From: Streptomyces formicae
Lineage (GTDB): Bacteria > Actinomycetota > Actinomycetes > Streptomycetales > Streptomycetaceae
Reading direction: 5' to 3'
Length of the DNA: 64,000 nucleotides
NCBI RefSeq assembly: GCF_022647665.1
Contig: NZ_CP071872.1
Coordinates: forward strand, 1-64,000
In this document: positions 1,990 to 47,557 of the stretch, piece by piece
How the letters are laid out: every line of letters starts with the position of its first letter
Position numbering within the stretch: the stretch's first letter is position 1
The notes under the pieces: generated by a model
Told to the model about the DNA's origin: nothing
The model's database searches: none
What the model saw: only the letters and a program-made list of their open reading frames with translations
Position numbers and translations under genes: made by a program

Positions 1990-2730
1990 CGCCGCCATCA
2001 CCCCGCCACGGCGCTGTTCGAATACGTGCCGCCGCCGGTCCGTTCTCCACAGAAGTGCGGACGATCTTCCGTCCACAGCCTGGGGACTCCCGAGTTGTCC
2101 AGATTGCATCCACAGGCACGGTTGATGAGACTTGATCACGCCAGGTCAGCCGGTTGTGGATTTGTGGCCAGCCGCATTCCACAGACTGTGGACGGATCTT
2201 CCGCCCACAGTCTGTGATTCTTGTTGTCCCCATGCGGCCCACAGGCCGGGCGTTGTTGCCCACAGCTTCGTCCAGCTTCTCCACACCTCTGTCCACTGTT
2301 CGGCAACGAAACGCCCGAGCTCACCGGACCGAGTGAAAGGCGTCACACCAAGGTGCTGGATTGGGCTGTGGGGAACGTGGGTAAAGCTGGGGACAGCACT
2401 GGGGAGAAGTCCGTGTGCCCTGTGCACCGGATGTGCAGAACTTCGAGGCGTCCACAGACAGCCGGGGTTGTCCACCGCTCCCGCCCACAGGGCCAGTGGA
2501 CAAAAAATCGCATCTGACCTGCGTAGATGGCGTTATCCACGGTTTCCACAGGCCCTACTACTACTCCCACTTAGAGTTACCGGGGAATCTGCTTCGAAGG
2601 GGGCCCTGTGCACAACTCGGCGCCGGAGCTCCGGCTGCCTCTTGTCTCGACTTGACCCCGAGCCGCACCGACTGTCGGTGCTGTGCGTCAGACTGGTCTC
2701 CGGCATCGGCCCCCGGCTCCGGCTGGGAGC
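1990..2730. other. oriC: Chromosomal replication origin oriC (DnaA-box cluster)
   Basis: The roughly 950-bp dnaA–dnaN spacer has no convincing gene but is dense in DnaA boxes in both orientations. Examples on + are TTGCCCACA at 2256–2264, TTCTCCACA at 2277–2285, GCGTCCACA at 2449–2457, TTGTCCACC at 2468–2476, TTATCCACG at 2533–2541 and GTTTCCACA at 2542–2550. On the complement there are boxes at 2188–2196, 2367–2375 and 2495–2503. The many GTCCACA/TTCCACA variants match the known preference of Streptomyces DnaA for T(T/C)(G/A/C)TCCACA. Position and composition match the characterised Streptomyces oriC. Short ORFs here are on both strands, mutually overlapping and non-homologous, so I regard them as spurious. 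Confidence 0.93.
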
Positions 2731-46147: not shown

Positions 46148-47044
46148 ATGGATCAGGCGCCAGGAAGCCCGGACCAGTCCCGGGCGGCACACGGGCTGCC
46201 GAGCTGCTACCGCCACCCGGGCCGGGAGACGGGCATCAGCTGTACCCGCTGTGAGCGGCCGATCTGCCCCGAATGCATGGTCAGCGCCTCGGTCGGCTTC
46301 CAGTGCCCGGAGTGCGTGCGCGCCGGTTCCGGTACGGGACACACGGCGGCCGCGAGCGCGCCCCGCACGATCGCGGGCGCGACGCTCACGTCCGGTGACC
46401 CGCGGCTCGTCACCAAGATCCTGCTGGGGATCAACCTCCTGGTCTTCTTCGCCGCGCTCTCCAGCAAGTCTCTCGTCAACCAGCTCGATCTGATCGGGCT
46501 GGCGATCAACCCCCAGACGGTCCAGGTGGTCGGCGTCGCCGACGGTGAGTGGTACCGGCTGGTCACCGCGATGTTCCTGCACCAGGAGATCTGGCACATC
46601 GCTTTCAACATGCTGGGGCTGTGGTGGCTCGGCGGCCCGCTCGAAGCCGCGCTCGGCCGGGCGCGCTACCTGGCGCTGTACCTGATCTCGGGACTGGCCG
46701 GCAGTGCCATGACCTATCTCCTCGCGGCGCCGAACCAGCCCTCGCTGGGTGCCTCCGGAGCGATCTTCGGCCTTCTCGGTGCCACCGTTGTCCTGATGCG
46801 CCGGCTCAACTACGACCTGCGCCCCGTGATCGCGCTCCTCGCGCTGAACCTGCTCTTCACCTTCACCTGGAGCGGCATCGCCTGGCAGGCACACGTCGGC
46901 GGCCTCATTGCGGGCACGGTCATCGCCTTCGGCATGGTGCACGCTCCGCGCGAGCGGCGGGCGCTCGTGCAGTACGGGACCTGTGCGGTCGTCCTGCTCG
47001 CCGTGATCGTGACTGTCGTCCTGAGGACCCTGTCGCTCAGCTGA
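46148..47044 (+). CDS. Rhomboid-family intramembrane serine protease with N-terminal zinc-binding motif
   Basis: A 298-residue polytopic protease. The N-terminus has a B-box-like cysteine/histidine cluster (CYRHPGRETGISCTRCERPICPECM … CPEC), then six or seven membrane helices. Rhomboid hallmarks are HQEIWHIAFNMLGLWWLGGPLE, catalytic serine in LGASGAIFGLLGA and histidine in WQAHVGGLIAG. It cleaves membrane proteins within or near the bilayer. The spacer to the next gene is rich in DnaA boxes. Confidence 0.93.
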   Translation: MDQAPGSPDQSRAAHGLPSCYRHPGRETGISCTRCERPICPECMVSASVGFQCPECVRAGSGTGHTAAASAPRTIAGATLTSGDPRLVTKILLGINLLVFFAALSSKSLVNQLDLIGLAINPQTVQVVGVADGEWYRLVTAMFLHQEIWHIAFNMLGLWWLGGPLEAALGRARYLALYLISGLAGSAMTYLLAAPNQPSLGASGAIFGLLGATVVLMRRLNYDLRPVIALLALNLLFTFTWSGIAWQAHVGGLIAGTVIAFGMVHAPRERRALVQYGTCAVVLLAVIVTVVLRTLSLS

Positions 47045-47059
47045 GCGCGAGCTTTCCCC

Positions 47060-47280
47060 AGAGTTGTCCACAGCGTGTGGTGGATCTTGTGCATCCCGTG
47101 GAGAACAACTGTGCCCCCTGTCGCTGAGCTGGGTTTTTCCAGCAGGGACAAGGGGCGGACAGAGGTGGCGGATGTCGCTGGATTGGCCCCCGCAGTCACA
47201 TCGGCGTCAACTCTCCCTGAGTTATCCACAGATCGTCAGACCTTTTCCCACGACTGTGGACAACGCTGTGGATAACCTTG
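47060..47280. promoter_or_regulatory. Second DnaA-box cluster, rhomboid–crgA spacer
   Basis: Four boxes match Streptomyces consensus exactly or nearly: TTGTCCACA at 47064–47072 (+), TTATCCACA at 47222–47230 (+), and complement TTGTCCACA at 47255–47263 and TTATCCACA at 47267–47275. The last two are 3 bp apart. They lie between convergent genes, so a promoter role is less obvious than a DnaA-binding or titration site. Confidence 0.75.
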
Positions 47281-47299
47281 GGGCAGAGCTTGACAGCCG

Positions 47300-47557
47300 C
47301 TATTTCCACTGTGTGGAGACGGCGAAACCACCGGCGATGAAGCCGAAGCCGACCACGATGTTCCAGTTGCCGAGGGCGTCGATGGGCAGCTTGCCGTCAG
47401 TGACGTAGAAGACGACGATCCAGGCCAGTCCGATGAGGAACAGTGCCAGCATCACCGGTGCGACCCAGCTGCGGTTCGTCAGCTTGATGTTGGTCGCCTG
47501 CTTCGTGGCGGGCGGCGGCGTGAAGTCGGCCTTCTTGCGGATACGTGACTTCGGCAC
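47300..47557 (-). CDS. crgA: Cell division protein CrgA
   Basis: An 85-residue membrane protein that controls FtsZ-ring assembly and sporulation septation in Streptomyces. The N-terminus [15 protein letters not shown] is characteristic. There are two spans ([37 protein letters not shown]). The GTG start has AGGAGAG in front of it. The gene is monocistronic and convergent with the rhomboid gene. Confidence 0.95.

Follow-up and report, generated by a model that had tools for sequence, protein, structure and literature searches.

In E. coli, datA is a DnaA-box locus outside oriC that has an accessory factor. In Streptomyces coelicolor, the D78 cluster is said to bind DnaA with high affinity and its deletion to have raised initiation, and D78 is one of the Streptomyces clusters of strong DnaA boxes outside oriC (H69, H24 and D78) that were reportedly described by Smulczyk-Krawczyszyn et al. 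in 2006 (J Bacteriol 188:6184). The boxes of E. coli DARS1 run in the order +,-,-, with start-to-start distances of 14 and 12 bp, while DARS2, read by eye, is similar with degenerate outer boxes. E. coli boxes also lie at conserved high density near oriC, for which the accessible part of one report proposes DnaA titration (PMC12371093).

The locus analysed here is best classed as a variant of this known type, the non-oriC DnaA-box control locus. Since we take crgA to be SCO3854 on cosmid H69, H69 is probably this very locus, and the Streptomyces cluster beside crgA has probably already been published from S. coelicolor under that name. A literature search that reached a minority of subscription journals found no account of an element shared across the class, nor of any group of DnaA boxes associated with crgA.

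Four DnaA boxes between a rhomboid gene and crgA

The window is the whole 64,000-nucleotide stretch of Streptomyces formicae DNA that was analysed. Four boxes span 212 bp (47064-47275) between the convergent rhomboid and crgA genes and, measured from the oriC boxes beside dnaA, lie ~45 kb from oriC, all as the original prediction had described. The pair that it took to face each other 3 bp apart (47255 and 47267) does have that spacing, but both of its boxes are on the minus strand, in tandem; it is 47222(+) and 47255(-), 24 bp apart, that face each other.

Table 1 Features of the candidate locus and its surroundings in the window.
Feature	Coordinates	Strand	Basis or remark
DnaA box 1, TTGTCCACA	47064..47072	+	motif scan
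DnaA box 2, TTATCCACA	47222..47230	+	motif scan, conserved
DnaA box 3, TTGTCCACA	47255..47263	-	motif scan, conserved
DnaA box 4, TTATCCACA	47267..47275	-	start-to-start 12 bp from box 3
Imperfect palindrome, GTCACATCGGCGTCAAC	47195..47211	.	counterpart of class-wide TNACACnnGTGTNA; possible MtrA site
Candidate DnaA-control locus (whole 255-bp intergenic space, rhomboid gene/crgA)	47045..47299	.	
Rhomboid-family protease gene, left neighbour	46148..47044	+	stop 47044; Pfam PF01694, E 2.9e-38
crgA, right neighbour	47300..47557	-	stop 47300; Pfam PF06781, E 5.7e-30
dnaA	59-1834		
oriC boxes adjoining dnaA	~2043-2615		

With a strict box defined as TTRTCCACA and the reversed pattern as control, the whole 8.2-Mb genome contained 71 strict sites against 19 control sites, and this locus, the densest strict-box group, was the only place in the genome with four strict boxes per 212 bp. 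The 64-kb window held 22 sites with at most one mismatch where 6.7 were expected, a number reached in 0 of 100 shuffles. The single four-box stretch and the excess over control and shuffles together argue that the cluster did not arise by chance. Under the same strict definition, the oriC region contained no TTRTCCACA site. The clustering of several strong boxes near the origin but outside oriC by which H69 and D78 are recognised was found at this locus.

Three smaller strict-box groups lie ~33, 75 and 87 kb beyond dnaA if the record is treated as circular. At ~75 kb, a second conserved facing pair was observed (G000:C1 ~8101787-8101821, L183), which we presume may be the D78 or H24 cluster; in a number of other Streptomyces genomes, pairs of 34 bp resembling it recur at distances of about 90-130 kb from crgA. 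Two more groups on the origin side, made up of strict and near-strict boxes, were seen at G000:C1 8090667-8090973 and 8144418-8144506 (L182, L184). Within the window, the spacer between boxes 1 and 2 contains an inverted repeat at 47115-47155, CCCCTGTC...GACAAGGGG, with an inner CTGGG/CCAG stem and no T-run. Rfam gave no match at the locus up to E 1, and a structured RNA was rejected on that ground.

Conservation in the family and across the class

Within 650 bp 3' of crgA, at least two strict boxes were found in 99 of 101 Streptomyces genomes and at least three in 87, the two exceptions (L024, L117) having no rhomboid gene beside their crgA. Among 80 named Streptomyces loci, three or four boxes were present in 77, and 250 of the 261 strict boxes in these loci (784 kb in total) fell inside the 700-bp stretch by crgA. 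Of 44 loci from other genera of the Streptomycetaceae (16 genera drawn), 43 carried two or more strict boxes; g17 had none within 650 bp. The facing-pair pattern was present in 149 of 150 family genomes, part of which were checked for its place by crgA. Retention of the boxes between species, which the original prediction had named as its test, lends good support to a predicted DnaA-binding cluster outside oriC.

The spacing is conserved as well as the boxes. Box 1 and box 2 lie 146-150 bp apart, start to start, in 66 of the 87 Streptomyces loci where both are present. Outside the boxes, conservation extends to GTCACACCGGCGTCAAC, which precedes box 2, and to a TTTTCCC run that follows it, and the palindrome match begins 25-27 bp before box 2 in 63 Streptomyces loci. 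Distances from box 2 to the last box fall at 31-33, 42-45 and 54-56 bp, in steps of ~11 bp. Pure helical phasing was rejected as the explanation of these steps, which in at least some genomes reflect which minus-strand box is strict. For the distances between boxes 1 and 2, a 10.5-bp periodicity (R 0.65, p 0.005 uncorrected, from eight periods tried and 11 modes merged by a 2-bp rule, with relatedness left out of the model) is suggestive only. Two variant arrangements were also observed. Ten Streptomyces loci (L137, L141, L144, L146, L150, L151, L156, L157, L161 and L162) have a short spacer of 122-177 bp without box 1 and keep the facing pair, while one genome (G196, C1 3954759-3975045) carries three copies of the box element in 21 kb, each with its own crgA copy, which is either a repeat or an assembly artefact.

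Sixty-eight genomes from other families of the class had been chosen as a negative control set. In 63 of them, the 300 bp 3' of crgA held boxes with at most one mismatch, versus 7 of 68 for the 5' flank, and for strict boxes the figures were 39 and 0, so that the intended negative set was not negative. Outside the family the element is near-gapless and ~49 bp long, comprising a plus-strand box, a middle box on either strand and a minus-strand box, followed by the palindrome. The box trio is either +,-,- (spacings 10 and 13) or +,+,- (13 and 10). When a profile trained on half the families was searched in the remaining genomes, it detected the element in 34 of 37 and 17 of 31, and the rest of the 178 kb gave no match at E<0.01. 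Misses came mostly from f17, where the palindrome is mostly absent, and f37, which the profile missed, as it did f3 and f32.

Model R1 matched 157 of 197 class genomes at E<=0.01, and 156 of 181 outside the Streptomycetaceae; at this threshold, 15 of 16 Streptomyces genomes gave no match. For 109 genomes both the match and crgA had listed coordinates, and in 98 of these the best genome-wide match lay within 600 bp 3' of crgA, at a median of 39 bp and in one orientation in 92 of the 98. Where dnaA was on the same contig (n=58), the element was 9-71 kb from it in 49 genomes and 104 kb in one; in the other 8 the distances were on the Mb scale with the two toward opposite contig ends, a wrap to ~30 kb having been checked for G413 and G267 only. 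Outside the class, 32 genomes matched at E<=0.001, with 20 matches by crgA, 7 away from it and 5 in genomes without a CrgA match.

What sets the Streptomycetaceae version apart from the class element is that its boxes 2-4 stand between the palindrome and crgA. In L204, L259 and L272 the alignment to the class profile runs on the opposite strand, covers positions 1-48 and contains an insertion. From the box placement and the opposite-strand alignment, the Streptomycetaceae form can be read as inverted and expanded. The window copy scores E 0.51 against the class model, second of 8 matches in its genome and not significant, so it is from place, boxes and palindrome that we infer homology between the Streptomyces form and the class element, with order and spacing rearranged.

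The palindrome and a candidate partner

A single copy of the exact palindrome ATTACACnnGTGTAAT was found in each of 28 genomes among the 197 of the class, and the control pattern in none. Fifteen of these sites are part of the element and 13 lie elsewhere (L367-L379, several families). A WhiB-domain match starts 136-175 bp downstream of 12 of the 13, and the contig of the remaining one ends too soon for a downstream view. This distribution suggests that the palindrome is probably an operator with two main places, the element and a site likely to be the operator of a conserved whiB gene. The window palindrome has one half-site mismatch.

As a lead, MtrA is tentatively put forward as the protein that binds the palindrome, which on one reading consists of half-sites recurring at 11-bp intervals, as in the MtrA motif. 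Pairs of GTNAC-like half-sites with this spacing (6-bp gap, at least 7 of 8 positions), mostly imperfect, were found in 58 of 101 Streptomyces and 17 of 68 class genomes, above other spacings; in other genera of the family this spacing occurred in 10 of 44 and was equalled by another. The conserved ACA...TGT positions extend beyond the MtrA motif. The BldD box consensus is TNACNC-N1-GNGTNA, and BldD was rejected as the binder: the corresponding spacer has a length of 2 in 61 of the 101 Streptomyces genomes, 3 in 14 and 1 in none. In the accessible parts of the published reports, MtrA binds oriC and interacts with DnaA, its motif is a repeat and whiB is among its targets; BldD also controls whiB, and crgA is not named there as an MtrA target.

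Possible functions and relation to known systems

These sequence features are best explained by an ancient DnaA-control locus close to the origin, of which the site would be the Streptomycetaceae form; with a palindrome-bound partner, and by titration or control of the nucleotide state of DnaA, it would limit re-initiation. We regard this reading as fairly probable. DnaA would bind the strong boxes and oligomerise there, and a second, dimeric regulator, tentatively MtrA, would bind the adjacent palindrome and modulate the DnaA complex. Duplicated early after each initiation, the locus would leave less free or active DnaA for oriC, and the lowered DnaA at oriC would limit re-initiation. A wider proposal, held with less confidence and somewhat short of probable, is that a single origin-side locus controlling DnaA, analogous to DARS and datA, is ancestral to the Actinomycetota. 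In it, a cell-cycle regulator bound to the palindrome, perhaps MtrA, which would also serve the whiB promoter, would sit next to a box trio and couple DnaA activity to both division and development; the cluster beside crgA in Streptomyces would be the rearranged descendant of this locus.

Passive DnaA titration alone, with the site belonging to a group of sinks on the origin side (H69, H24 and D78 in S. coelicolor) in which only the boxes matter, seems rather unlikely, if a serious contender. The tight strict-box groups flanking oriC at about -33, -75 and -87 kb, the effect reported for D78 deletion and the titration proposed for the E. coli box excess are all consistent with it. Simple sinks would fit poorly, however, with a palindrome, a fixed 49-bp layout outside the family and a conserved distance of 25-27 bp from palindrome to box 2, or with an exact palindrome that also lies upstream of whiB. 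It is doubtful that the locus is an active nucleotide-state switch of the DARS or datA kind, a sub-case of the DnaA-control reading in which DnaA bound to the trio would swap ADP for ATP or hydrolyse ATP, driven by the palindrome partner. The DARS1 order matches one of the two class trios, the tandem boxes of the window are 12 bp apart, and a three-box core is required for nucleotide exchange in DARS, as far as the accessible text goes. Spacings nevertheless differ between groups, the third, facing weak box is degenerate in the window, and few box arrangements are possible, so that the likeness to DARS may be convergence.

Regulation of crgA or a neighbour by DnaA, which would tie replication timing to division as the original prediction had suggested, is very improbable. 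The site does follow the 3' end of crgA in most class genomes with both coordinates listed, and it stays by crgA even where the rhomboid gene was not found there. Against this, it lies 3' of crgA between convergent genes, a consensus scan of the locus found no promoter-like or terminator-like site, and the element stays when crgA moves away. In f25 it adjoins ppiA-rhomboid (G285, G396, G405) or a gyrB-like gene (G267, G302, G413), with crgA absent there and the neighbours identified by eye from the sequence. In two Streptomyces loci (L050, L063) the genes are ordered as expected if the segment from crgA to sortase had been inverted, with the boxes at the far end of that segment and the palindrome visible in L050; L110 had no strict box within its 10 kb. 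The link to crgA timing was rejected, since the element keeps its origin-side place without crgA. A secondary origin, or a terminator of either transcription or replication, would suit noncoding, box-rich DNA near oriC between convergent genes, yet is most improbable given the lack of an Rfam match and of a terminator-like site.

The means by which actinobacteria keep DnaA in check from one initiation to the next, and tie it to division, are poorly understood. Under the preferred reading, a DnaA-control locus with a palindrome-bound partner, a discrete ~49-bp target, found in most class genomes searched and readily deleted, would open the question to experiment in Streptomyces as well as in mycobacteria and corynebacteria, and the palindrome shared with the whiB upstream region offers a handle toward the partner protein.

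Like H69, H24 and D78, the locus is a cluster of strong boxes around but outside oriC; an element spread over family, class and phylum, its palindrome and the whiB counterpart of the latter are absent from the portion of the literature retrieved. It resembles datA as a non-oriC DnaA-box locus with a presumed accessory factor, but the E. coli stretch examined has sparse boxes over hundreds of bp and no tight trio, and a datA-like layout was rejected because the element is a tight trio. It resembles DARS1 and DARS2 in its tight group of DnaA boxes in noncoding DNA and a putative accessory-protein site, and in one of its class layouts has the DARS1 order +,-,-; its spacings differ, its candidate accessory site is a palindrome rather than an IHF or Fis site, it is near the origin, and its DARS activity is putative. 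The E. coli box excess, in the part of that report accessible, is a regional density, whereas here there is one discrete, conserved element.
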